In this document: positions 3,402 to 39,400 of the stretch, one piece after another
Layout of the letters: each line of letters opens with the position of its first letter
Numbering within the stretch: position 1 is the stretch's first letter
Source of the DNA: Haematococcus lacustris
Taxonomy: Eukaryota > Chlorophyta > Chlorophyceae > Chlamydomonadales > Haematococcaceae
Length of the DNA: 64,000 nucleotides
Assembly (NCBI GenBank): GCA_030144725.1
Contig: JASKMD010000009.1
Span: forward strand, 3,301,015 to 3,365,014
Direction of reading: 5' to 3'
Program-made: the position numbers and the translations under genes
The notes under the pieces: model-generated
What the model saw: the letters and a program-made list of their open reading frames with translations, nothing else
Databases searched by the model: none
What the model was told of the DNA's origin: nothing

Positions 3402-5408
3402 CTATATAGGGGGAACTTTTACCGGGAGACCTGATTGGCAGGTGATGCTGGCACTAACGACATCGTGTGCTTGAGAGCTGCTGGCTTGTGTGATGAGGCG
3501 GCCGAGTGTTTGGCATTCCTCATGATAGAGAGGTAGCCCCTCTTCCGTGGCCGACAGCCCGGATATAGAGGCATAGACTAGCTGCCGTGCCCTGAGGGTA
3601 TGGTGAAGGAGGGTGAGCATGCGGTGTCCTTGTGTGCTAGCCTGGGTACTGAGCCAAGTGATTTGTTTGTGCAGCATGCTCCTTGAGATGTGGGCGTGCG
3701 TCACATCTGTGGACTGGAGGCTGTGTGTGAGGGCTGTCGTATTGCGAGCATGGTATTCCTGGGCTGTGGAGCTGATGCCCATGCCTAGTTTCCCGGCGTC
3801 TTCTCTGATGATGGCATTGGGCGTTCCCAGGGGGAGTCTGAGCTTAAGCTTCACGCATTGATTGATGGACCTGTCGTATAGCTCAAGGTCCCCAGGGGTG
3901 CAGGGCACGGCACAGAAGCTATAGGCTAGGCTGGGTATGATGGCCGTGCGGATGATGTGAATGGCCTGTCTAGCGCTAGCAAAGGAGCGTCTGAGTCTCT
4001 CGAGTTTTTGGCGGAGCTGGGTGATCATGGCGGTGTGTTGTGGTTTCCAGTCCAGCGTCATGGTGATGAGCACCCCCAGGTAGGTGAAGGGTGAGGTCGG
4101 GCGGTGGTAGGTGACGGGTTTCCCTTGTAGGCTGATGGTTTGGAGTTGTTGACGGGCCCGCTTGTCAGCTTCGGCCGCGTTGCTGCACATGCCGGTTTCG
4201 ACTGAGTGGTGGAGCGCCGCTGTTGCGAGGGTTTTACTGTGTGAGATGATGAGGTGACCCCAGTCCGAGAAGGCTGAGAGTTTGTCCGCTTGGCATCCGA
4301 GGTTGCGAAGGGTGTTGCAAAGAATAGCGATGTCATCTGCATAGTCAATGCTGCTGACGGTGGCGCGTTCCCCGCTGTCGGCTGTTGCTGATTTGAATTT
4401 ATAGCCCCTCGCGCCCACTTGCAGCCATCGCAGGAGGGGTTCAATGTAGATGAGAAATAGGAAGGGCGAGAGAGAGTCGCCTTGTATGGTGCCCCGGTTG
4501 ACTGGAACCGGGTCAGTATGGCCGTACGGGGTTTTAAATCGCGTTGTGGCGCCGGTGTATAGGTCCTTCACTGCGTCAGTAGCGTCCGTGGGGAAGCCTA
4601 GGTCGTGCATGATCCATAGCAGTTTATCCTGGCAGGTGGTGTTGAACGCACTGGTGAAGTCGACCAGGAGTGCATAGATATCTGCCTTGGCCAGTTTAGC
4701 ATCCTCAAGGGCCATGACGAGCATCTGCAGCTGTTGTGTGGTGTTCCTGTGGGAGCGGAACCCAGCCTGGTTCTTGCTGAGCATCCCATTAGCTTCAGCG
4801 TACTCAGACAATGTCTTGGTAATGAGGCTGGTCCACAGCTTATAAACGGTGTTGGCTAGGCCCACTGGCCTGTAGGAGTTTAGGTCTGTTTCTTCCCCCT
4901 TGTCCTTGTAGAGCAGGCATGTGTCACTGGTTTTCCACGTGGTGGGTGTGCAGCCTGTTGCCCACATGATGATGAAGAGCTTGTGGATGGTTTCCCGCAT
5001 CTCCCATGGCAGCATCTTGATGATTTCGTTTTCCACGCCGTCTGGTCCCGGGGCCTTGCCTCCTGCCAGCCTGCTGAGGCATTCCTGGAAGCCTGCCTTG
5101 TCCATGATGGCTGTGTGCAGCCAGTGTATTCTTTGGCATGCGTGCATTGCGAAGGCGTCGTCTGCTTTGGCGCGAGCCCACGGGTAGTTTCGTGTCTGTG
5201 TGTTAGTGTAGTGGCCGGTCTTGGTGGTCGGGGCCGACAGCTTCTGCCCATATGCGGCGGTGATTATCCGGTTTAGGTCGGCGGGGGCTGTGCATATGGT
5301 TTTGGTGTCAGGATCAGCTAGCGCCTGCAGGCCTTTGTGGTCGGTGCGGGACGGGCGTAGGATACGTTTGTTAGCCTTCTTGGGCTGGGTGCTGATCAGT
5401 TGTTGCAT
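3402..5408 (-). CDS. Retrotransposon ORF2: reverse transcriptase
   Basis: The 668-codon ORF is counted from its first Met, but the frame is open upstream to about 5530 and overlaps the end of ORF1 in another frame. RT blocks are clear: GKAPGPDGVENEIIKML (about 117-133), NSYRPVGLANTVYK (177-190), NQAGFR (213-218), LLVDFTSAF with catalytic D250, RGTIQGDSLSPFLF (305-318), the YADD box at 356-359, then HSKT and YLGVLI. It would copy the element RNA at the nicked target (TPRT). In most LINEs APE and RT share one ORF, so the frame change near 5480-5530 is either a one-base indel or a translational frameshift. The catalytic residues are intact. No RNase H or zinc knuckle follows. Confidence 0.9.
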   Translation of the reverse strand: MQQLISTQPKKANKRILRPSRTDHKGLQALADPDTKTICTAPADLNRIITAAYGQKLSAPTTKTGHYTNTQTRNYPWARAKADDAFAMHACQRIHWLHTAIMDKAGFQECLSRLAGGKAPGPDGVENEIIKMLPWEMRETIHKLFIIMWATGCTPTTWKTSDTCLLYKDKGEETDLNSYRPVGLANTVYKLWTSLITKTLSEYAEANGMLSKNQAGFRSHRNTTQQLQMLVMALEDAKLAKADIYALLVDFTSAFNTTCQDKLLWIMHDLGFPTDATDAVKDLYTGATTRFKTPYGHTDPVPVNRGTIQGDSLSPFLFLIYIEPLLRWLQVGARGYKFKSATADSGERATVSSIDYADDIAILCNTLRNLGCQADKLSAFSDWGHLIISHSKTLATAALHHSVETGMCSNAAEADKRARQQLQTISLQGKPVTYHRPTSPFTYLGVLITMTLDWKPQHTAMITQLRQKLERLRRSFASARQAIHIIRTAIIPSLAYSFCAVPCTPGDLELYDRSINQCVKLKLRLPLGTPNAIIREDAGKLGMGISSTAQEYHARNTTALTHSLQSTDVTHAHISRSMLHKQITWLSTQASTQGHRMLTLLHHTLRARQLVYASISGLSATEEGLPLYHEECQTLGRLITQASSSQAHDVVSASITCQSGLPVKVPPI

Positions 5409-5452
5409 TCTGACGCGGGCTTGCGCGATGGCGAGTGCGGAGTCGTCGTCGT

Positions 5453-8400
5453 CTAGCTTGGTGGATTTGGTCGCGGTACGTAGTTGGTCAGTCGGGCGAG
5501 CGCGGCTTGCACGTGATTGTCGGTTGTATCGTCGCCCTGGCGCGCTTGCACCGCGTCCCTTATCTCTCCGTTTGTCGCATCTGTCTCTGGAATGAGATCG
5601 TCGATTGTCGGGTGCACGTTAGTTTCCTTAAAGAGGGAGTTAGCCTTCCGGCTGAGGTCTCTAGTGGTCTTAAGCTTTCTGCCCAGTGCCAGTCTAATCC
5701 TACACATGGTCCTGCGTTGGTAGTGTTGGCCTCCCCTTGTAAGGGTCTTAGTGTTGCATGTCTTTATAGCTGCCGTCCTGCAGGTTTGTAGGAGATGTGT
5801 AAGCATGGTGGCTGCGGTGTCTACAGCTTCCCTGGCCGAGAGTCCTGCCACTGTTGTCAGGCGATGTGGTTGTTGGGGGTTGGTCTTGCCAAGTGTAGCC
5901 AGGTGGTGGGTAGCCTCTGTGTATATGGGGGCTAAGAAGGCTGTCAGTTCAGCATGCAATTGTGGGACGCCTGAGCTGGGTTGTTGCACTGCCTGGCGGT
6001 AGGCTTCCCTGTCCTTATTGGTAATGGGGGTGGTGAGGATGGTGTGGATGTGCTTTGGAGGTTTGTGTGGGGCTGCCAGGGCTATGCCCAGGCGGGCTGT
6101 ATGCAGTGTGGCGGTGAGTGGCCTGTGGTCGCTCAAATAGGCGTTGGTATCGATGTGCGTGCGGTGCTCAGGGCCGTGCCTTGCGTCGCGTGTTAGGATG
6201 GCGTCGATGCGGCTTTTGCAGTGCGGTTGTTGGTAGGTCCAGGCCCGGTCGTCGGGATCAGCTTCCTTCAGGTGCATTTCTGTGGCGAACCCCCTCATCA
6301 TGTTATCTTGTGTGTACTCGGTGTGCTCGGAGCGATCCTCTGTTTTCATCGTGGCGTTGATATCTCCCGCAAGGATGAGTGAGCCGGGCAGGTGGCCCGT
6401 GGCTGTTCGTATGTGTTCTTGCATTTTCCCTCGCAGTGAGAGCGCGTCGCCGTTGTTTCCCGACGGCCAGTACGTGGCGATGATCGTGAGTTGTTCGCAC
6501 TGGTGTTGGTTGAGGGTCAGGATGACGCATCGTGCGTTTACCTCTGCATCCGTGCACGGCGGGAGCATCTTGGTTTGCATTTGGATGGCTAGGTTGTGTT
6601 TGATGCCTATCAGCACTTCACTGTGGCCTCTGTGTCGATGTGTCGTATAGTCTGGCATGACTCTCTTCAGCCAGCCAGAGCCTGGATTGTTGCTCTTGGG
6701 CTGGGTCATGGTTTCAGTTAGGACCAGGATGTCCGGGCTGTGTTGATGCACAAGGTTTAGGACGTCTTTCCTGGACCTATGGAGGCTTCTGACGTTCAGG
6801 GTCGTAAGTGTGATATGCTGTCGATTGTGTGTTGGTTGTGGCTGCCGGGTTGGCAGGGTGCTGTGTTGTGCTTCTGTACTCACTGATGGGTTATCTGTGG
6901 GGTGAGCGGCTGGAGGCGGGGTGGGGGCTGTGTATTGGTAGATTAGGGTCTGCTTGTGCGAGTCTCTAGGTTGTGCCTTTGGTTTGGTCCGTCTTCTGAA
7001 TGTCCCATTAGGGTGGCCTGTTGATGTGGGCCGTTTGTCGCTGCGTGTCCTGCTTTGTGGAGCTGATAGTGTGACGGTGGGGGCGGCTTGGCGCTGTCGC
7101 GACTGAGCGTGTTTGTTTGCCGGGTATGTGTCTTCTGTAGCCGTGGCGTCGCGCTTGTTACTCGCTGGTTGTGCGGTTCCTACTTTGGGTGGCGGCCGGT
7201 CGCTTCGGGGGCTATGCGCGGGTTGTGTGCGCAGGTCATTAGTGAGGTCCACGTGCGCGGCGCGTAGGTGTTGTTCCAGCTGCTCCGTTGTGGCGCGCCT
7301 TGTAGGGTCTGCTAGCCAGCATAACGGTTGGATAAGGTTGGTATTAGCCGCGTCGCCCTTTTTAATTAGAACGAGCATGCCATGCAGCTGAAGCCAGTCT
7401 TCCGGAGTGTCCAGCCGCCAGGGGCGGCCCCGTTCCGAGTCCAGCCATTGCCATGCGTTGTCGATGTGGCGGATGGTTGTGGCATGATTGTGGGTGATGA
7501 GAATGGCAGCTGTGTTGGTGTAACTGTCTATCCTATCAGTGAGCGTGGTGAGGAGCTCGGGTGTGATGTTTCCAGGTGTAAGCTCGGTGGCGGCAGGGCA
7601 TAGGTGGAGGTCCTTGTGGTAATGGTATAAGTAGTGGTTCATGGTGGAGATGGTAAAGTTGCCGGATTCGTCGTAAATGTGTGGGAGGCTGCCTGGGAGT
7701 GGTATATGCCTATTTTCTTGCCTTGCCTGGATGGCCAGATCCTGGATATGTGTGCCTAGTGTTTTGCAGTGGGTGATCACATCATCAGGTATAATCATAG
7801 GTTGCCCCATGGCCATATTTATGGCGTGTGCAAGGCAGCACTTCTTGTATTGCTTTTCCCAGTAAGGCCTATGTGTTTCCTGGGGGTTGCTTATGATGGG
7901 CCCAAGCCTTGCCCTCTGCCTTGCCGCCTCCATCTCCGCCGTGTAATTTGCGGTGCTAATGATTGCTTGTATCTCGCATGTAACGGGGTACGCGAAGTGT
8001 CCAGTGGTCCGTAGTTGAGTAGGGGCATTCGCTTGGGAGTCAAGGAGGTACCAGGCTCCATCGTGTTTCCGTATTGCCATACTGTGTGCCGGGGCTTTGC
8101 ATAAGAAGGCATTTGTACCGTGGGTAGCGGAGAGCGCGTCTAGGTTGTGGGTTGACCAGTCTCTCTTTGCTCGCAGGTGCGCCACTGTGTGTGTACTGAG
8201 GCCGTAGTGTGACGTCAGGTAGAGGTTTATGACTGTGTCATTGCACGCACCTTGGTTATCCCTAGCTAGTGCCCACATGGTGCGTTGTTCCCCTTGCCGC
8301 GCGTGTAGCTCGGACGTGTGGAAGTTGGCCAGTTCCTGGTTAGTGAGCCAGGAGTGTCCTGCCGCCATGTTGAGGGCATGTATTTGGCAGTGTGAGGCTA

Positions 8401-10519
8401 CCTGTTGTTCGAAGTACAGACCGTCTGGGCCTGGGTTCGGCTCAATGTCTCCCGCTGCCAGCAGAAGCCAGCTGATGTGAATGCATCGTGCCATGTATGT
8501 ACTTATAGCCATGAGCCATGTGGGGCTGCTACTAGTGTTTGGGTTGAGGTAGTATGTCATGTAAGCTTGTAGTGTGGTGTTGTACTGTATGGCTCTGATA
8601 GTCCTTCCGCTATTGTGTCCCTTAAGGTATGTGTAGGCAATGTGGTTCAGGCGGGTGATGGCCGTTGCACTAGGAAGGGTCCCATCTATGCCGAGTAGCC
8701 AGTTGTACGTGGTGTTGTGTAGGGAGGCGTTGAGCTTTGCAAGGGTCTTATGCTGTTTCTTGAGGCATTTCCTAGATTTGGTGTGTGAGTATGTAGGTTG
8801 ATGTCGCTTCATACACATGCTGATCCATAAGCACACGCAAGCCAGGTAGGCTACGATCTGCCGGTTCATGTCCAGTTGTTGGATGGGTGTCCAGTTGGGG
8901 TGTCCAAAGGGGGGGTTGGGCATAGGGGTTATGATGGTATACCTTCGGTCCATGTTGTCTATGGCTGTGTTTTTAAACGAGGCGACACTGCATGTCCATG
9001 TCTCTGTGACAGCTGGCTGGTCATGCCAACCTGCAGCGGTCAGGGCTGGCAGGTGGTGGTGGGGCTGAGCGCCATGTTGCATGTCAGCCTGCGTGGCAGC
9101 ATAAGTAGCTTGCGTCTCTGTGGCAGCTGGCTGGTCATGCCAACCTGCAGCGGTCAGGGCTGGCAGGTGGTGGTGGGGCTGAGCGGCATGTTGCATGTCA
9201 GCCTGCGTGGCAGTATGAGTAGCTTGCGTCTCTGTGGCAGCTGGCTGGTCATGCCAACCTGCAGCGGTCAGGGCTGGCAGGTGGTGGTGGGGCTGAGCGG
9301 CATGTTGCATGTCAGCCTGCGTGGCAGCATGAGTAGCTTGCGTCTCTGTGGCAGCTGGCTGGTCATGCCAACCTGCAGCGGTCAGGGCTGGCAGGTGGTG
9401 GTGGGGCTGAGCGGCATGTTGCATGTCAGCCTGCGTGACAGCATGAGTAGCTTGCGTCTCTGTGGCAGCTGGCTGGTCATGCCAACCTGCAGCGGTCAGG
9501 GCTGGCAGGTGGTGGTGGGGCTGAGCGGCATGTTGCATGTCAGCCTGCGTGGCAGTATGAGTAGCTTGCGTCTCTTTGACAGCTGGCTGGTCATTCCAAC
9601 CTGCAGCGGTCAGGGCTGGCAGGTGGTGGTGGGGCTGAGCGGCATGTTGCATGTCAGCCTGCGTGGCGGCATGAGTAGCTTGCGTCTCTGTGACAGCTGG
9701 CTGGTCATGCCAACCTGCAGCGGTCAGGGCTGGCAGGTGGTGGTGGGGCTGAGCGGCATGTTGCATGTCAGCCTGCGTGGCAGCATGAGTAGCTTGCGTC
9801 TCTGTGACAGCTGGCTGGTCATGCCAACCTGCAGCGGTCAGGGCTGGCAGGTGGTGGTGGGGCTGAGGGGCATGTTGCTTGTTAGCCTGCATGGCAGCAT
9901 GTGAATCTTGCATCTCTGTGTCAGGCGGCTGGTCATGCCAACCTGCAGCGGTCAGGGCTGGCAGGTGGTGGTGGGGCTGAGCGGCATGTTGCATGTCAGC
10001 CTGCATGGCAGCTTGTGAATCTTGCGTCTCTGTGTCAGCTGGCTGGTCATGCCAACCTGTGGCGGTCAGGGCTGGCAGGTGGTAGTAAGGCAGGTCGGCT
10101 TGTCTCTTGTCAGCCTCTGTTTGGCTGGCACTGTAGAAGGTGCACTGTGTGGTTTGTTCCATCCTTGAGGTATCACAGCTGGTGGGCTGTGAGATATTAC
10201 CGCAGCAAGGTTGCTGGGTATGCTTGTCTGTGCCGAAGGCTTTTCTGGAGCAGCAGTATCGCTGTGTACTGTCGGACCAGCACAGGAGCTGGGTTTGGAG
10301 GCGCAGAGGCCAGTTTTTTACGCAGCCCTTGGGCTGGATTTCGGAACTTCTGACTGCGCGGTCACCTCTAGGGGTGCCATCCGGGTGGGTTGGCAGACGT
10401 ATCGGAGGGCACCCACTGGCTTCCTCTCCGAACACGTCCCCAACCCACCCGATGCAGGCCAGGGTCAGCACAAGCAACAGAGCAGAGCGCCTACCAAGGC
10501 GTTCGACCTCCATCGCCAT
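5453..10519 (-). CDS. Retrotransposon ORF1: signal peptide, tandem repeats, 2A-like motif, two Josephin-like proteases, APE endonuclease
   Basis: This ORF has 1688 codons. Residues 8-32 look like a secretory signal peptide (LLLVLTLACIGWVG core), followed by a Cys-rich stretch. About ten 38-residue repeats (core HHLPALTAAGWHDQP) lie at roughly 140-500, then two hydrophobic segments. Residues 690-698 read GDIEPNPGP, matching the 2A consensus DxExNPGP; skipping between G697 and P698 would release a 697-residue secretable product and a 991-residue enzyme part. Residues 702-830 (Q706, C711, H812, D827) and 886-1030 (Q890, C895, H1012, D1027) fit the Josephin pattern of Gln five before Cys and Asp/Asn 15 after His. 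Residues 1234-1475 form an APE endonuclease (N1242, E1269, D1386, D1439, S1463-D-H1465). The frame closes shortly before the RT. The protease assignment is by motif only. Confidence 0.85.
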   Translation of the reverse strand: MAMEVERLGRRSALLLVLTLACIGWVGDVFGEEASGCPPIRLPTHPDGTPRGDRAVRSSEIQPKGCVKNWPLRLQTQLLCWSDSTQRYCCSRKAFGTDKHTQQPCCGNISQPTSCDTSRMEQTTQCTFYSASQTEADKRQADLPYYHLPALTATGWHDQPADTETQDSQAAMQADMQHAAQPHHHLPALTAAGWHDQPPDTEMQDSHAAMQANKQHAPQPHHHLPALTAAGWHDQPAVTETQATHAATQADMQHAAQPHHHLPALTAAGWHDQPAVTETQATHAATQADMQHAAQPHHHLPALTAAGWNDQPAVKETQATHTATQADMQHAAQPHHHLPALTAAGWHDQPAATETQATHAVTQADMQHAAQPHHHLPALTAAGWHDQPAATETQATHAATQADMQHAAQPHHHLPALTAAGWHDQPAATETQATHTATQADMQHAAQPHHHLPALTAAGWHDQPAATETQATYAATQADMQHGAQPHHHLPALTAAGWHDQPAVTETWTCSVASFKNTAIDNMDRRYTIITPMPNPPFGHPNWTPIQQLDMNRQIVAYLACVCLWISMCMKRHQPTYSHTKSRKCLKKQHKTLAKLNASLHNTTYNWLLGIDGTLPSATAITRLNHIAYTYLKGHNSGRTIRAIQYNTTLQAYMTYYLNPNTSSSPTWLMAISTYMARCIHISWLLLAAGDIEPNPGPDGLYFEQQVASHCQIHALNMAAGHSWLTNQELANFHTSELHARQGEQRTMWALARDNQGACNDTVINLYLTSHYGLSTHTVAHLRAKRDWSTHNLDALSATHGTNAFLCKAPAHSMAIRKHDGAWYLLDSQANAPTQLRTTGHFAYPVTCEIQAIISTANYTAEMEAARQRARLGPIISNPQETHRPYWEKQYKKCCLAHAINMAMGQPMIIPDDVITHCKTLGTHIQDLAIQARQENRHIPLPGSLPHIYDESGNFTISTMNHYLYHYHKDLHLCPAATELTPGNITPELLTTLTDRIDSYTNTAAILITHNHATTIRHIDNAWQWLDSERGRPWRLDTPEDWLQLHGMLVLIKKGDAANTNLIQPLCWLADPTRRATTEQLEQHLRAAHVDLTNDLRTQPAHSPRSDRPPPKVGTAQPASNKRDATATEDTYPANKHAQSRQRQAAPTVTLSAPQSRTRSDKRPTSTGHPNGTFRRRTKPKAQPRDSHKQTLIYQYTAPTPPPAAHPTDNPSVSTEAQHSTLPTRQPQPTHNRQHITLTTLNVRSLHRSRKDVLNLVHQHSPDILVLTETMTQPKSNNPGSGWLKRVMPDYTTHRHRGHSEVLIGIKHNLAIQMQTKMLPPCTDAEVNARCVILTLNQHQCEQLTIIATYWPSGNNGDALSLRGKMQEHIRTATGHLPGSLILAGDINATMKTEDRSEHTEYTQDNMMRGFATEMHLKEADPDDRAWTYQQPHCKSRIDAILTRDARHGPEHRTHIDTNAYLSDHRPLTATLHTARLGIALAAPHKPPKHIHTILTTPITNKDREAYRQAVQQPSSGVPQLHAELTAFLAPIYTEATHHLATLGKTNPQQPHRLTTVAGLSAREAVDTAATMLTHLLQTCRTAAIKTCNTKTLTRGGQHYQRRTMCRIRLALGRKLKTTRDLSRKANSLFKETNVHPTIDDLIPETDATNGEIRDAVQARQGDDTTDNHVQAALARLTNYVPRPNPPS
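8426..8452 (-). other. 2A-like ribosome-skipping motif (GDIEPNPGP)
   Basis: The codons at 8452 down to 8426 encode GDIEPNPGP, preceded by a hydrophobic and helical stretch (ISWLLLAA), as is usual before active 2A sequences. The core DxExNPGP is complete. 2A-like sequences are known from trypanosome L1Tc/Ingi and from some animal APE-type retrotransposons, where the ribosome releases the upstream chain after Gly and resumes at Pro. Activity here is inferred. Confidence 0.85.
9010..10125 (-). repeat. 114-bp in-frame minisatellite, about 9.7 copies
   Basis: The unit is 114 bp and encodes 38 residues (AQPHHHLPALTAAGWHDQP, then a TETQATHAATQADMQHA-like half). Internal copies are almost identical and the edge copies are diverged, which suggests recent homogenisation. 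It lies inside retrotransposon ORF1 between the signal-peptide region and the 2A-like motif. The plus-strand ORF at 8876-9904 is its antisense shadow. Confidence 0.95.
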
Positions 10520-10620
10520 CGTTGACCTCCGACTCGGTTATGTCTCGGCTTCAAATAAGCAGCTGCTTCCAGCTGTATTGTCAGCGAGGCGTGTCTTAGC
10601 GTGAGCGGTCCAGAAAACTT

Positions 10621-10767
10621 CTTCGATTTTCTCAAACCGAAAAAGTCGAATGGTGATGACATGGCTCCCCCCCCCATGTCTTTGTTTGTTTACACCGCTA
10701 GCCTTTTATGCTTGCTGGGGCTGCTGGGGCTTACACGAAGTACCAGGCCTGCTACTGCTGCTGCTGC

Positions 10768-30444: not shown

Positions 30445-33436
30445 CTAGTGAGTAGGGCTCGGTAACACATGCTGACACTCAGCCATGACTGCCCGCGTCA
30501 CCAACACTTGACCAGGGCCTGCTTGGCGAAGCAACTCGTGCACCTGCCGCAGCGCCCGGCTGTTGTAGACCGGTCGGCCAGTGCTGTTAGTGGCGACCTT
30601 GCATGCTCCACCGGGGACCTCCGCCACAACGGCACGCAACCGTATGCCGCGCAACATTGACGCCGCGAACACGTGGGGACCTCCTGCTCTGCGTGCGGGC
30701 TCACATGCTACGCGAATGTGTTGGAGCAAACGCGGGAAGTGAGACGCCGAGGTGGGTGACAGGGCAACGTCTGCCAAGGGCTTGGGTGCTTGCACGGAGT
30801 CCCTAGGCGCTCGCCAGGCGCTGTGCACCTCTTCGCACAACTCGTGCATCAGCATCTCAAATGGCCAGTCCATGTCAAGCAACCGCTGCCGCAGCGTGAA
30901 GGCCAGGGAAAGCGCAGCGTGGGAGCTTCCGCAAGCCAAGACGACTTGAGTGGGTCGCGATGAGAATGCCAAGGTGACAACACATGGCTCTTGCATGTCC
31001 GCGGGCTGAGAGCGAAGTGCCGACAGTCTCCGTGTTAAACGCTGCCGATCGTGAGTAGCTTGCTGACGTGACGAGGAGGTATTCGCGCTGCTTGCACGGA
31101 TGCCGTCAGGCGTCCTCGTCGCCCTTTCTTCATACCCCGACGGCCTGTTCTCCAACGCCGTGGGTGTCTTGTCAGTTGCTGACATTTTCATGGCAATGGA
31201 GGATACGAAGCTGGTAGCGCTGCGTAGCAACTGCTGCGAGGGTCGCTTGACCGAAGTGAATATGCCGCACAATGCCGATAGCTCATCCTCTACGACGACA
31301 GCCGCGCGGCCATCCGTCATCTGGGTTGAGCACTCATGCATGAGCTGCTGCACAGCCTGCAAGGCAGCCACTGTCAAAGGGAGATCCCAAGCCAACAGCG
31401 CCCCAGCCCCAGCCAGCTGCAACCCCACCAAGTATGCCCCGCAGCCTTGACTGTTGCCCAGCTGGCGCGGTACTGGCGCTGCCCACACACCCGGTAGCAA
31501 ACACTCGCTCTTGCGTAACTGCAGCGGCAGCACTGCCAAACGGGCCGCCAGCGGCTTGGGGAGCATGGCGACGATTTGCGTAGCAGGTGCCGGCCGCTGT
31601 TCTGTCGTCTCCGACAAATGGTGGTAGCCCCAGTGGTAGAGCTTACACTCCGGCGGCAGCTCGCCTGCGGTCATTCCTGCTTTTGACCCGCCGCTGATGA
31701 GAAGAGCGTTGACGCAGTCATGGCTGAGCAGCACCTGCCCTCCCTGTGCGGCATCGGCGACCGCGGCGGACACGCTGCGCAGTGGTCCAGAGTAAACCTG
31801 GCGTGCCATGATGCGGTTGTAGGAGCTGTGCGCCGCGCAGGCCAGGCCGCAGTGCATGCCCATGCGCACGCGCAAACCTCGCCATACCAGCACCGCGCCG
31901 GCAGGCCGTGCAGTCGTGGTCTTGAGGCAGGGCCGCCACTTGCTGCTCCACAAAGTGCCCAGCGTGTGAGCAGCCGGTCCTCCAGCCTTCATGGTAATGG
32001 CTGCAGACAAGCTGACATCTTCGGGTTGCGCCATGGGTAAGGACAAAGCTGCAAAAGCCGACGAAGACAAGCTGGCTTGCTTGGGTAGCGCCATGGGTAA
32101 GGACAAGGCTCCAAATGCCGCTGAAGGCTGCCTCGTCTCATTCGCGGTCTCGTCGATGGTGATGTAAGGGAGTTGTGGCAGATTGAGGGGCCGCAGGGAC
32201 ATGGCGGACTTGCATTTGGACACCCTTGTGCGTGAGGTGTTGGGTGTGAAGCGCTTGGAGGATGAGTCTGAGCTGGTCAGGCCACTATCTCGTACATGCG
32301 TGGCCTTCTTTGCCATGTCTGCGAGGTTGTCATGATCTCCTGAGACCAGGCCCGGGACGGCATACGATGCATGCACCGTGCCACATAATGTCTGCGCCTT
32401 GGCATCAAGTTGCCAGGAAGGGGCTGCAGCAAGAGATGTTTGCGGTGGTTGTTGGGCGGGTGACTTGGCCAGCTGTGCCTGGCCAGGGGCAGGCAGCAGA
32501 GCACTGGCTGCTGTTGTAGACCCGACCCCCACTGTTGCCACTGGCCCCACCGCTCCTCTCCTTTCTGTAAGGGGTGGCGGTGGTGGGCTGTCTAGAGCTG
32601 TTGGGGTGAGTTGGGCAAGTGGCTGCAGGGTGACTCGTATGATGGTGTCAGAAGGGGCTGTGGAGGTGGGAGCATTGTGGCTGGTGGATCTGGATAAGCA
32701 GGAAGTGTAGTCTTGTGGCAGAGAGATAGGCACCAGGTGAGGGTGCGCAGCTGGAGTAGCCATCAAACCCCTTGACGGGGGTCCTGCTGCAGCTGCTTCA
32801 GTCGCCAGCAGTGCAGAATGCACGCATGGCAAGGCTAGCTCTGGCTGTTGCTGAGCAGCAGCAGGGGCTGGAGCGCAGGCAGCGCCAAGGTCACCACAGC
32901 TGCTCCCCACATCAGGCTTCCCCTCGGGCTCAGATTGCAGCGTGCACTTACGTAGCACATGGTGGTGGACCTGTAGGGGGGTTAGCTGCCTACGGTGCAA
33001 AAGGTTCGACAGGGAGCGGCCAATCTGGAGGCTATGTGGTGATCCCAGGCTGAGAACAGGCCGTGACTGATTGCTCAGCATTGAGGCCAAGGTGCCGCTG
33101 AGGAGAGACGGCTGAGAGCTGGATACGGAGGGGAGGCCAGGCGGGGGTTGGCCCTGTTGTGCCCGGGTCTTCCGCTGGGGCGCCATCCACAGCACTGCTG
33201 CGGGCGGTGTTGCCAGCAGTGCAGATGGCCAGTCCAGGAGCAGCAGGGTCTGCTGGACTGCAGCTGCAAAGCGCAGGGCGGGGGCGGGGTGCGGGAAGGC
33301 GATGACGAAGCTGTCGCCCTCCCAGACGGACTCATAGCCCTGGTGGTCGGCAGCCAGTGTGCGCAGGCAGTCGTTGTGGAGCTTGAGGGCCATGTTCATG
33401 ACCTCAGGGGCCAGGCTGTCCCACAGCCAGGTGGAG
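30445..33436 (-). CDS. Cyclase catalytic exon of the receptor cyclase
   Basis: This single exon of about 997 codons completes the first cyclase domain. Metal-binding Asp residues come from TDIQDST (preceding exon plus splice) and WEGDSFVIAF (about 33300-33327). After AVQQTLLLLDWP the domain is interrupted by about 430 residues of low-complexity sequence before resuming at LRVRMGMHCGLA (about 31855-31890) and the YSGPLRSVSAAVADAAQGGQVLLS segment. A second, weaker cyclase-like domain follows (LACGSSHAALSLAFTLRQRLLDMDWP, later GRPVYNSRALRQVHELLRQAGPGQVLVT), suggesting a C1/C2 pair in one chain. The second domain lacks a clear TDI motif and may be regulatory. Substrate (ATP or GTP) cannot be decided by eye. 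Confidence 0.8.
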
Positions 33437-36400
33437 CTGCGCAGGGCGGCCGCAAGGGGAGGAGGGCCAAGGGGTCTTCTGTAGGTTCGTATGGGGCGGG
33501 GCAGCAGGGTGGGTTCAGAACAAAAGCAGTGGTAGGCAACTGTGAAGGAGACTCGGGGTGAAGCCGCAGGCCATGAGGCTAGGTGGAGTGGGACGTTGAT
33601 TATGAACTCCCTGCCTCCCTCCTGCACTTTCTGTCTTGGACTCATCCCCTTGCTCCACCCACAGGTGCAGGACCTGTCTCCACCAACAGGTGCAGGTGCA
33701 GGACCTGTCTTGGACTCATCCCCTGCTCCTGCTACGGCACTAGTTCAGCAGGTGGTGCCTGTAGACTGCTGCCCGCCACTCACTCCTGGATGTCGGTGAC
33801 CAGCAGGCAGGTGTGCGGCCCTACACCCGGGGCCTGGCGCCAGGTCTGCTGCTGGGCCCACAGCCGCTTCAGGTGAGGCCTGCAGCGCCAGGCAGGTAGG
33901 CGGCAGGCGGCAGCAGCTTGGTGAGCAGCGGCAGCACGGCAGGTGATTGTTGCAATTGGAAGCATGGCAGCTGGTCACAGGGTTCATCATTGGCCTGGAA
34001 AGCAGTGTCAGGGTCAGGGTCTGAGTCACCTGACCAGCAGCGCAGCTACAGCGACCATCAGTGTCGCGCCTAGCCCCACCACCAGGGCGATGAGGCCAGC
34101 CATGCCTCCCACAGCCCCCCACTGGCCTGGCTCTTGTGATCTGGCTGCTGGTGGCAGCGGTGGGCTGGTAAAACTGGGTGGGGAGGGTGGCGGCGGCTGG
34201 GACGGCTGTCGGTTCAGGCTGGCCCAGTACCATGTGCGGAACAAGCTGGTGTTGTAGCCAAACAGCCTCGTAAAGCTTGTAGTCAGGGAAGCTGCTGCTT
34301 CTGCCATGACCCGCTCGTGGTCCTGCTGCTGGGTTGTGATCTTGAGCACCATGTTGCCTGCGGTGCTCACAAAGGCACTGGCGCCAGGGATGCGAATCTG
34401 CAGGAGACATGCAGTGCAGTCAAACGGTCCGACCCAGTGTGCATGCGAATGCCAGGGTTCTGGTGCACCTCTGCCATTGCCCTGTGACCATACCAGCAGG
34501 CCTATACATGTCAACAGCAGCATGCCACTGTCCCTACAAACTCCTCTCCTCTGCCCACACTCCAGCAACTCATCTCGACCTCTACCCTCACCAACCACAC
34601 TCCTACACTACCCTGCCTCTCCTTCCCAGGCAGCCCACCTGGACGTGCATGTTGGGGTGCTGCAGGGAGGCCCGGTGGGCAGCCAGGAAGCGCGCTGCGT
34701 CATCAGCCTGGAACCCCGCAGCGACCCAGCGCCTGACATCCAGTTGGGACAGCCGGGTAGGAAGGCTATCTGCAGCAATAGCAGGCAGCTGAGCGCAAGC
34801 TGGCAGCCAGCAGACAACGCAGCTAGTCATGGTAGGCAGCAGCTGGGTGATGGGGCTGGCGTGCCCTGCACCAGGCTTGCCCTGCTGCCTGATCCAGGGT
34901 GTCTAATCCAGCTGCCTGATCCAGGGTGTCCAATCCAGCTGCCTGATCCAGGGTGTCTTCCTGGACAGGCCAAAGTGAGTTGCCTATCCAGGAAGGGGGT
35001 TGCTAGACTAGGCACTACCACCTGCCTGAGTCCGGGTCCAGCACCAGAGCGTCCAGCACTCCAGCAGACGCTAGCTGCAGCACAGACCAGCAGCAACATG
35101 AAACTAGACAGCAGCTGGCACCCGCCCTCACCCTTCAGCCTCACAGCTGTGTACCCAGTCAACTGTGCAGGCCGCACAGGGTAACCTGCCTGTAGAGGGT
35201 GCCTTAACAGCGGTGACAAACTGCTGGCTAGGTCAGGATAGTGTTGGGGCAGGCACTGCACCTACACAGCCTAGCACGGGAGGGTGTGCTGATGCTGGAG
35301 TAAAGCTTCCCCTGCAAACCAGGGGCACAGCCCTCGCAGCGATGCACTGCTGGACGATGATGGCAAGTGCAGTACAGGACCACTCACATAGCTGAGCACG
35401 CTGTAGGAGAAGAAGCGCAGCTCTGGGGTACTCTGGGCGTTGATGGTGGTCAGAATGGCCTCAAATCCCGGGGAGTGGTTCACCAGCAGCCAGCTGCCGT
35501 CTGCCTGCTGGTACCTGCCACAGGGTGAGGTGTCAGGGTGAGGAGCAGGGGGGCAGGCAGCAGACAGAGCCAGTTAGACAGAAGAAGAAGAAGAAGAAGA
35601 AGAAGAAGACTACTCCGGTATTCACCGGCGTGCATTAAGGGAGGAGCTACCGCCTGGGGCGCGGCCTGCTCCCACCAATCAAACCAAGAAAGAGGCGACC
35701 CCGCTACCCTCCGTCCCTCTTAGTAGCCCTGAGTCTGTAGCTTGTCTTTGCAATGGAGTGGGCTGTCTCCACCGCGTGTCTTGTTAGCTTGTGTAATAGT
35801 TTAGTAGTGTTATCTTGTGAGATCCCCAAGGCCAGGAGGTGTTGCCGTGTGTGTGCTTCATACGTTATGCCACCTATGCCCAGGAGGATTGGTCTAATCT
35901 CCACCATGTGGCCTACCTTGCGTATGGTTTGAGCTAGATTGATGTGTTGGTTGAGTGCCTTGTCTAGTTGATCCGTCCACCTTGAGTCCGAGCAGTATTT
36001 GATTTCTATGATGGTGACCCGTTTGATGGCTTTGCCACGTTTGCCCGTCTTCGTTGTAGGCGTCACCATGAGAATGTCTGGCCTGGTGGTACTTTTTATC
36101 GCTGTTGTCTTGAGGCCAAGTGCCCGTAGTGTTGTGTGTAGCGTGTCGTTAGGGAGGTCGAGGTCTTCTTTCGCACCCTTCTCCCAGCTGCCGGTGTCCG
36201 CGAATCGGATGCACCCGCCTAGGGTACCCTTGCTTATGGCTTTAGCGATGAGGCGGCCGGCCCCGTTATGCCTTTCTTGCACCATCGGTAGTGTCTCGCT
36301 GCAGCCCGAAAGGAGGTGAGTGGCACTGTCGGCTTCCCCGCAGAGTGGGCACCGGTCGTCGGTCGCCCGCTTTCAACGCATGGCCAGCTTTTGGTTATAG

Positions 36401-39400
36401 AGTCCGCCGGTACGGTAGAGAAGGACAGTTCGCTGCGCGGGTATGGAGATGTTCGTGTCGGTCATCACCCTTTCGCCTGCCCCTTTGGCCGCGGCTTTGG
36501 TGATCTCCTGAGACATCTGGTAGTAGATACTGTCTTGATTGGCAAGACCGAGGTTGTGCTTGCGGTGCATGTGTGCTCGCACGCTTTGGCGGCAATCCGG
36601 CAGTGGGGCGGGGGTTTCGCCGTCGGCTTCGTTGGTGAGCCAGGTGTTGGTCTCTTTCCGTGTGGTCGGGCGGTAGGCTGGGGTGTTGGCAAGCTCTGGG
36701 TGTAATGCCGCGTGCTTGGCGAGGGCATCGGCGCCTTCGTTGCCGATGATGCCCGAGTGGGCCCTGACTTTGTAGAAGTGGATCGTGACGGGGCTATCGA
36801 TGATGAGGGTGGCGATAGCGGTCAAGATGTCGTTGTGTCTGTGTGTGATGAGGGACATCGGGTTAGCGAGGGCTCGGCGGATCTGGTAGATAGAGCAAAG
36901 GCTGTCGGTGGCGATGCGTTTGACCCCGGCTGTGAGTGCCGCGTGTATCGCCGTGAGTTCCGCCTTGTTGATGGTGTTGTTTTCTGGGTCATCCATGGCG
37001 ACGGTGACGAGGGCGTTGTTATCCGGGATGTAGACCCCCGCGCCGACGCGCGCTGGGTGAGCACCAGAGGCCTTGATGCAGCTGCCGTCCGAATACGCGA
37101 GCGTGGCCCATTCGGTGATGGCCATCCGTGGCTGCGTCGTGGAGTGCTCCGTGAGCTGGTTGTGGCTGCGTTGGTGCCCCGAGGTGGGGAGGTCCCTGTC
37201 CAGCGGCAGGCGCATGTGTTGTTTGTGGCCGCTAGGGGGTGTGGCCGGCTGGCTTTGATTCGTTGGTCTGTTGCGGATGGGGTGTGTGTCTCGTTGGGGG
37301 TGGAGGGCAGTGGCAGTGCTAGCCAGCCATCCTTGGGGGTTGCCTTTGGTGACGAGTTGTTGTCCTGCTGCATTCCAGATGACGTAAACGTGGAGGTTGG
37401 CGTGCTTGCTTGGCTTGGAGCAGCTGGTCTTGGTGGGGGGTATGCTGGCCAGGTGCTGGCAGTATTCAGGGTAGCGCCGAAGGGTGTCAATGTGTTTTGG
37501 GTAGGAGATGCCCTTTTTCCCAGGGATGAGCATGATGGTGGCCATGGCCTCCTCCTGGGTCGCTGAGTGTATAGCATGGTTGACGCATTTGAGTGCCACC
37601 GCATCGTCTGCCGGTACGTTCCATGTGGATAGCCCAGTGTGGCGTACCAGAAGGCAGTTGTGGTGTGCACCAAAGGCCGTGTCGTTGATGTCAGGGCTCC
37701 AGTAGGTAGTGGTTTCCGGTCTAACCGTGAGTGGATCAGCCCACCTTTGGACGGTACTTGGAAAGCTTCGTGTGGTGTGTAGAGTGGCCAAGGCTTTGTC
37801 TTGTGCCGCTCTCATGGGGTGGTGGTCGCTCTGTGTGTCGTGTCTCCTTAGGAGGGCCACCAGTTCTGTGGCCAGGTTGCGTGTGTGTTGTAGCCAAGCG
37901 TGTAGGTGTTGGTGTTGTTGTTTAGTCAGAAGACCTATTGTGCGACCCGACTCATCGTGGGCCGTTACATGTTGCACTAGGTCGTGCTTGGGCATGGTGG
38001 GTTCCCCCTTGTTGGAGCTCATCGCGGGAGTGGTCATGTGGGGGTGTAGTTGGAGGAAGGTTTCGCATTTGCCCGTCCCGACGATGTCCGTCTGCGGGTT
38101 GATGGGGTACGTGTGGAAGGTGGCCTTCGAATGCAGGTTGGTGCACCGGGGTAGCCAGGTGTGCGGGTCCGGCAGTCCTTGCCGGGTGTGGTCCGGCAGG
38201 TTCGCGTCAGGCCTCGCATGTCTGGCTTCTTGTATCAGCCTATTTTCCTCGTCGTAAACGTTGCGCTTTGCCGTGTAGTCCAGATGCGCCGTTATGAGAG
38301 GTGCCGGTTCAAGGGTGGGGCGCCAGTGTACTCGTATGAGGTCCGAGTGCGCTGACTGACGCATGGTAGTCTTGAATTCATTGCTGCCAAACTTGCATAT
38401 AGGGCACAGCCAGTAGCCTGCTTCCTTATGTCCTGACACGAGGGCTTTTTCAAGGCAGGCTGGGTGGTAGGCCCTCTTGCAGTTGTGGCACATTGGGCTG
38501 TCCCCTCGTGGTAGCCAGCATAGCTCACATGTGCATACGTCTTTAGCCTTTTCCCTACTGATGGTCTCTATGTGTGTGGGTGTATAGCCTTCTTTTGCAC
38601 ATAGGTGTAGTGCCCACCGTTCTATGACTGTAGGTTTCCAGTGCACCTTGTAGTAGCTTTCCTTATTGATGCCGTCCCACTGCCAACCGTCTATGTTGGT
38701 GATGGCCTCTTGGTGGTCGAACATGGCCCCAAGTGTGCGCCCTAAGTCCGTGAGTTTGCACCGGCAGGCTTTGTCCAGTTAGACAAGGAAACCACTCTTG
38801 GCAGCCCGCACTATGCCAGCAAGCACTGGGTGCTGGTTGGTGTGAGGAGCAGGAGGCTTGTTGTTCCGTACTCACAACCTTTGAGCGTATATGCATAAGA
38901 CGCTCAAAGGTTGTGAGTCTCAGACTTCTCCACATGTTCAACAGCGTAGGCTGAGACTGTCTGACTGTGCCTGAAATCTGAGAAGACTCCGCTTGCTTGA
39001 TGGCAGCCTATAGCATGGCATCTGATATGATATGGAATTAGGTTCCAAACACACTGTATAGCTTTATTTGTGACTGTTGTGACTTGTCAACAGCAACGCA
39101 ATGCCAGCTCAGCCCTCACAGCCTGTGGGCACCTACTGTGATGCATGTGGGCAGCGCTGGAAGGTGCAGGGCACAAGGCTGTTGCTGGGCCGGTCCAGCA
39201 CGCGGTCAGAGCCTGGCAGCAGTGCAGCTCCCATGTTGCCCCGGACTGAGCCCACCAGGTCGGCTCGGCTGATGTGCGACAAGTACTGCAAGCAGCACCA
39301 GGGTGCAGGCGGCGCTTAGGACAGCAGCAGGATGAAGGTGGAGGGATGGTTAGGCACACTGCATGGTGCAGGCAGGTTTCATATTGTCAGGGAACAAAGG

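Follow-up and report, generated by a model that had tools for sequence, protein, structure and literature searches.

How might a retrotransposon with a single, very long reading frame keep a protein that is probably bound for membranes apart from its own replication enzymes? This question is raised by a stretch of 64,000 nucleotides from the green alga Haematococcus lacustris (Chlorophyta), positions 3,301,015 to 3,365,014 of contig JASKMD010000009.1, called here the window. A long interspersed nuclear element (LINE) lying on the minus strand of the window contains the 2A-like motif GDIEPNPGP at positions 8426-8452. Very probably, this motif is part of a working StopGo (2A) site in a large LINE family of the Dualen/RandI type, and it would free a probably secretory or membrane N-terminal protein from an enzyme polyprotein.

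One mRNA with a single frame of about 3,500 codons, as in the sister copies of the element, would be translated beginning with a signal-peptide-led, repeat-bearing and probably membrane-associated N-terminal protein. With the nascent sequence WLL(L/M)A(A/C/G/S)GD(V/I)ExNPG in the exit tunnel, the ribosome would release at the final glycine and resume at the proline. The resumed product would be a polyprotein containing two Josephin domains, an apurinic/apyrimidinic-type endonuclease (APE), a reverse transcriptase (RT), PHD and RNase H domains and a restriction-like endonuclease (RLE), in this order. Skipping would uncouple a protein directed to the endoplasmic reticulum (ER) from cytosolic or nuclear replication enzymes. 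What is observed is the sequence of the site, its position, conservation and selection pattern, and the order of the domains around it; from these we infer skipping and how efficient it is, where the products go and what the N-terminal protein does.

The probable StopGo signal and its conservation

A first-pass annotation, made from the sequence alone, had described a nine-residue 2A-like motif at the border between a module with a signal-like start and repeats and a set of enzymes. The motif and its place were confirmed, since GDIEPNPGP is in frame with an open reading frame (ORF) of 1694 residues, NPGP occurs nowhere else in the six frames of the window, and the N-terminal module lies ahead of it, with the Josephin domains and APE behind. 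The length was revised: the core is as described, but the signal is actually a 15-mer, WLLLAAGDIEPNPGP (8426-8470, minus strand). The bond predicted to remain unmade is that between Gly703 and Pro704, the proline codon being 8426-8428.

The published StopGo core is (D/G/C/N)(V/I)ExNPGP, and its L-rich upstream motifs 2 and 6 end in (A/S/C)G ahead of the D, motif 6 having been assayed and found active (PMC12846837). DIEPNPGP in the window satisfies this core and, matched by eye, WLLLAAG-DIEPNPGP fits the L-rich class, with the hexamer LLLAAG followed by D. The family signal, WLL(L/M)A(A/C/G/S)GD(V/I)ExNPGP over its 15 residues, resembles motifs 2 and 6 of Li et al. 2026 (PMC12846837) in having an L-rich stretch that closes in AG and is followed by D(V/I)ExNPGP. 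However, those motifs pair with S at p15 in viruses, whereas the Haematococcus signals examined have P, E, A, K, V or M at p15.

A scan of the 308 Mb genome gave 6,680 first-look candidates, from which the 28 best-scoring copies, the window copy included, were scored. The core, searched as a degenerate match, is kept in all 28. An open frame of at least 3,400 residues surrounds 13 of these copies, and six sister copies chosen among the long ones are 3476-3580 residues each, with one NPGP each. Among 73 H. lacustris gene models retrieved using the 2A-to-APE region, 41 have the core. Loss of the core was considered for the other 32 and rejected, because none of them aligns across the junction from the upstream side: 18 match only from residue 700 of the window ORF or later, and 14 have no match to residues 521-1000. 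In model P0022 the match begins inside the site, at residue 700, and the residues ahead of it look like a gene-model splice. Models P0025 and P0050 keep the core behind unlike upstream residues, which are probably splice artefacts.

When the Haematococcus flanks were clustered at 70% identity, 13 groups were obtained. The residues G, D, E, N, P, G and P are present in all 13, and W/L/L/L/A/A in 10-12, counts that for W/L/L/L are depressed by P0025 and P0050, which were retained; within 40 residues on each side of the site no other column exceeds 9 of 13. In the pre-2A alignment (175 columns, 13 rows), 11 of the 15 invariant columns fall in the last 15. In three 100-residue blocks around the site, six of eight models (P0020, P0024, P0034, P0038, P0045 and P0052) are only 23-47% identical to an uninterrupted sister copy, copy A, and the 2A is kept there; P0008 (70-91%) and P0029 (38-81%) are nearer to copy A.

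Codon changes tell a similar story. In five comparisons between two subfamilies, the 15 signal codons show 7-8 synonymous changes and a single nonsynonymous one, which replaces P by E where the motif has its free x. The same comparisons give 6-8 synonymous and 6-8 nonsynonymous changes over the 40 codons upstream, and 13-17 synonymous and 4-5 nonsynonymous changes over the 60 codons downstream, where the Josephin domain starts. Constraint is thus seen at the 2A and at the beginning of the Josephin domain, but not in the flank upstream.

The first-pass annotation had held that family members without the NPGP core would speak against skipping. Within Haematococcus, the 28 copies mentioned above all keep it. 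Further away the picture differs: an RT search returned 241 proteins at E <= 1e-10, the best 120 of which include 52 that carry no H. lacustris name, and 48 of these more distant relatives, many of them incomplete at the N-terminus, do not have the core. Such a distribution would be expected if the motif were a relic, or a structural peptide retained by descent, with no recoding activity. This idea appears highly improbable to us, given that the codon changes are rich in synonymous substitutions that keep the amino acids and that the motif persists between flanks of such low identity.

A chance match was also considered and rejected. The degenerate pattern D(V/I/M)ExNPGP has 590 matches in the genome (268 + 322), against 3 (2 + 1) for the reversed pattern, and the conservation tests agree. 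Of the 590 matches 100 places were listed, and 10 of them, chosen with ten different codings, were fetched; every one of these 10 is at this junction, preceded by WLL(L/M)A(A/G/S)G.

The copy in the window

By blastn against copy A (contig C49), the element occupies 3437-10645 on the minus strand; similarity sets in at 10645 on the 5' side, identity is 98.98% across 3437-10002, and similarity stops at 3437, so that the 3' part (PHD, RNase H and RLE) is missing. The ORF of 1694 residues spans 5453-10537, with its first Met codon at 10517-10519, and tracks the family frame up to residue 1686 (about 5482), where it departs. The copy is therefore broken, both in its frame and at its 3' end.

The N-terminal module begins with a signal-peptide-like stretch, recognised by hydropathy (residues 7-38, end approximate; 10424-10519), whose best 19-residue value is 2.04. 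A leader much like it is found in five of the six fully read sister copies; the sixth, copy B, has unread letters near its N-terminus. The leader is followed by a 114-bp tandem repeat of 9.5 copies, in frame with a unit of 38 residues (9000-10083), and by the pre-2A domain (8471-8863). The latter consists of a hydrophobic segment (residues 559-576), a basic stretch and a domain that can be aligned across the 10 Haematococcus models compared.

Behind the 2A, two PF02099 stretches were found at a threshold of E 1. Josephin domain 1 (7988-8416, end approximate) matches Josephin proteins of the PDB weakly, with E values of 0.02 and 0.057. Josephin domain 2, the best-scoring stretch (residues 896-1042; 7412-7852), accounts for a whole-protein E of 5.8e-14. 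The APE follows at residues 1246-1471 (6125-6802; PF03372, E 4.2e-11). The RT (4071-4883; PF00078, E 7.5e-26) is encoded in frame 3402-5618, which in the window copy differs from that of the first ORF. All these features lie on the minus strand.

A further copy, 100% identical across residues 205-1686, is located to the left of the window, about 7 kb past its edge (G000 C542:3289280-3293725), and would be a recent or local duplication.

A LINE with two endonucleases

The first-pass annotation had described a green-algal LINE-type retrotransposon. It is an algal LINE, with the enzymes behind the 2A, but it is not of the plain APE type: APE is not its sole endonuclease, since sister copy A also has an R2-like RLE. 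In copy A the Pfam order is two Josephin domains, APE, RT and a weak PHD. RNase H (PF00075) was detected in a separate family fragment of the window (35589-38777, E 3.4e-15) and is also listed for many homologues. The last 333 residues of copy A contain CCHC and PD...ExK motifs that are common to its relatives. A search of this C-terminal part against the PDB by sequence gave no match. Its AF2 model (pLDDT 78.7) was compared by Foldseek, and each of its seven best PDB matches is to a protein of an R2 retrotransposon (E 1.6e-6 to 3.8e-3; query-based TM 0.50-0.56). Next come mostly viral cap-snatching endonucleases, with E values of 0.018 and above, which we take to have the PD-(D/E)xK fold. The model thus indicates a restriction-like endonuclease at the C-terminus of copy A, a part that the window copy does not have. 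The RT is also closest to R2 in the PDB (5.7e-26, against 2.8e-12 for LINE-1 ORF2).

According to Kojima and Fujiwara in 2005, Dualen reportedly carries a cysteine protease, a feature matched here by the two Josephin stretches. Our literature search combining Dualen, cysteine protease and Chlamydomonas found nothing. The presence of both APE and RLE is described as a mark of Dualen (PMC4640811, PMC3636483), and Dualen elements are reported from Chlamydomonas and its relatives (PMC8226300). By its domain layout, the element is assigned to the Dualen/RandI type. It shares with this type APE plus RLE, RT, RNase H and a host of the order Chlamydomonadales. It differs in its 2A site, as no Dualen 2A was found in the literature searched; its cysteine protease is a Josephin pair.

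Proposed fate of the N-terminal product and completeness of skipping

Hydropathy makes it plausible that the two products part into secretory and cytosolic compartments. Hydrophobic segments also occur within the first 1000 residues of P0084, P0086 and P0121, three relatives that do not have the core, and the association with membranes may thus predate the 2A.

Several observations weigh against the proposed skipping and the secretory fate of its first product. The 28 copies were taken from the top of the scores, and only 10 places were fetched out of 590 matches. A hydrophobic leader stands at the start of only two of the 11 Haematococcus models scanned (the window ORF and P0008), a count affected by gene-model starts that are unreliable, and three of the four non-Haematococcus 2A bearers scanned have no hydrophobic segment before the 2A. 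The transmembrane segment of the window copy is borderline (hydropathy 1.34), and the AlphaFold model of the pre-2A part is of low confidence (pLDDT 54). The core is absent from 48 of the 52 more distant relatives, and processing of the polyprotein by its Josephin domains is conceivable too. Moreover, the 2A of foot-and-mouth disease virus (FMDV) always left some residual unskipped fusion in Chlamydomonas (PMC6952782), although the separated product predominates in this alga of the same order, Chlamydomonadales (PMC3427385).

Such residual fusion is also what would be expected of a dual-targeting switch, in which skipping is incomplete by design: success would yield cytosolic or nuclear enzymes and failure a whole polyprotein held at the ER by its signal peptide and hydrophobic segments. 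A use of this kind has been described for StopGo sites of sea urchin proteins, where StopGo follows an N-terminal signal sequence (PMC12846837). The window copy has a signal-peptide-like N-terminus and P0008 an unrelated one, and in P0020, P0038, P0043, P0044 and P0052 a hydrophobic stretch runs into the 2A. If the leader is indeed a secretory signal, the likeness to the sea urchin case lies in the link between StopGo and secretion. However, the sea urchin 2A stands directly after the signal sequence, whereas here the core ends at residue 704, some 700 residues from a leader at about residues 7-38, and most of the scanned models start without one. We consider a designed switch unlikely, with some claim to attention.

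Predicted start of the enzyme product

The enzyme product would start with P-DGLYFEQQVASHC, carrying a Josephin-type Cys at its position 14 (Cys717, counting Pro704 as the first residue), which we liken to Cys14 of ataxin-3. In nine rows of the alignment the Josephin-type Cys lies 11-36 residues past the proline. The predicted second product of P0134, a relative from outside Haematococcus, aligns with Josephin-2 from chain residue 14 (E 5.3e-6) and with ataxin-3 (1yzb, 2.4e-4) from chain residue 4. In ataxin-3 and Josephin-2 the protease domain starts at once, as in the predicted product. Not every Josephin protein has such an early start, since PaJOS aligns with domain 1 of the window copy no earlier than its own residue 54.

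The position of these domains raises another possibility, namely that the element cleaves this junction with its own Josephin or cysteine protease, for which the NPGP peptide would be a recognition sequence and not a skipping signal. A literature search for Josephin in retrotransposons led, in PMC2861651, to a match with the name of an institute. Two Josephin domains lie directly downstream, and Cys and His/Asp-type motifs are present in both. Josephin proteins are known as deubiquitinases and are not known to cut at NPG|P. The conserved residues are those of StopGo, the LLLxAG stretch included. In addition, P0104, another relative, has two 2A cores and, at residues about 660-780, a Ulp1-type protease (PF02902, E 1.3e-22), with no Josephin match; from this case the protease module behind the 2A seems replaceable. 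Cleavage by such a protease is, in our opinion, very unlikely, and StopGo is preferred as the means of separation.

Relatives outside Haematococcus

The four core bearers among the 52 more distant relatives are P0092, P0104, P0123 and P0134. Two of them have two 2A cores in tandem: P0092 at residues about 620-710 and P0104 at residues about 165-270, where the second core is a rare variant, DVHPNPGP. H at p14 of StopGo has been reported as active (PMC12846837). P0134 has GIEPNPGP directly ahead of its Josephin domain. A further profile search (A3) returned four proteins, three of them new, and added P0137 (GIEPNPGP, ahead of Josephin domains) and P0139 (DVEPNPGP), a more distant element. All five near relatives with 2A have CCHC and PD...E(I/V)K motifs, with different residues before PD.

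An RT tree built quickly from 63 rows, with several long branches and weak support (40) for its deepest split, places the four bearers in three small groups, apart from Haematococcus and with many non-bearers around them. Repeated gain of the site and an old site with many losses would both fit this arrangement, which is blurred by N-terminal truncation.

PF12237 (PCIF1) is listed for 26 of the 52 relatives. In P0092 this domain (E 9.4e-14) is situated after the PHD and before the RNase H, which suggests a captured domain resembling RNA cap methyltransferases; in copy A it was not detected in the first 3022 residues at E <= 1.

Probable exchange of modules around the 2A

Identity between family members is distributed as in a mosaic. 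Copy A and P0034 are 24-43% identical at residues 501-1200, which include the pre-2A domain, the 2A and the Josephin domains, and 78-98% identical in later blocks. Compared with P0008, copy A shows 60-98% identity up to residue 2000 and 42-83% beyond. The modules seem to have been swapped between lineages while the 2A stayed. Between copy A and each of P0034, P0052 and P0008, identity shifts sharply close to where the APE begins and again once the RT has begun, as if 5' and 3' blocks were exchangeable.

The N-terminus of P0008 has repeats and a signal-like leader that are unlike those of the window, and the first module, as read from the models, differs between subfamilies. The 2A might act as a partial switch between two compartments and, at the same time, carry exchangeable N-terminal modules before a shared enzyme half without fusing them to it; this combined role we hold to be rather unlikely.

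Comparison with other 2A-bearing elements

Trypanosome L1Tc is said to carry a 2A (Heras et al. in 2006), as reportedly do LINEs of animals (Odon et al. in 2013). These elements and the one described here share a StopGo peptide that is encoded within the LINE's own reading frame and precedes the APE endonuclease. Unlike them, the Haematococcus element has a green-algal host and adds RLE, tandem Josephin domains, PHD and RNase H, and its 2A forms a junction inside one giant frame, following a module of about 600-700 residues. Thus, 2A in LINEs was already known from trypanosomes and animals, and it is the green-algal host and the Dualen-type element that look new. In agreement with the first-pass annotation, which knew of no description in algae, the literature searched, which stops short of the survey of eukaryotic and viral 2As by Rao et al. 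2025 and of Odon et al. 2013, describes a natural 2A neither in algae nor in Dualen.

As far as their available parts go, PMC6952782, PMC12371167 and PMC12857756 deal with FMDV 2A as a tool and not with a natural algal 2A. Most natural StopGo is described from viruses, with few cases among cellular genes, and the 2026 PNAS study found no evidence that plant viruses use it naturally (PMC12846837). If the reading as a working StopGo site is right, natural StopGo would gain a place in the green lineage, with candidate sites numbering in the hundreds in one chlorophyte genome, and also in a type of LINE that has both endonucleases. It would also hint at the way in which a LINE with one frame can produce its ORF1-like protein separately from its ORF2-like enzyme. 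Algal 2A peptides could be an option in the biotechnology of microalgae, in which some fused product remains with the FMDV 2A (PMC6952782).

Other features of the window

The fragment at 35589-38777 (minus strand), with a weak PHD match besides its RNase H, is a 3' piece from another member of the family. It shares about 90% identity with copy A and has the same orientation as the window copy. Also on the minus strand, a frame of 1099 residues at 30445-33744 has a sub-threshold match to guanylate cyclase (E 0.0036). A long G-rich run of short tandem repeats was noticed by eye at 1190-1760.

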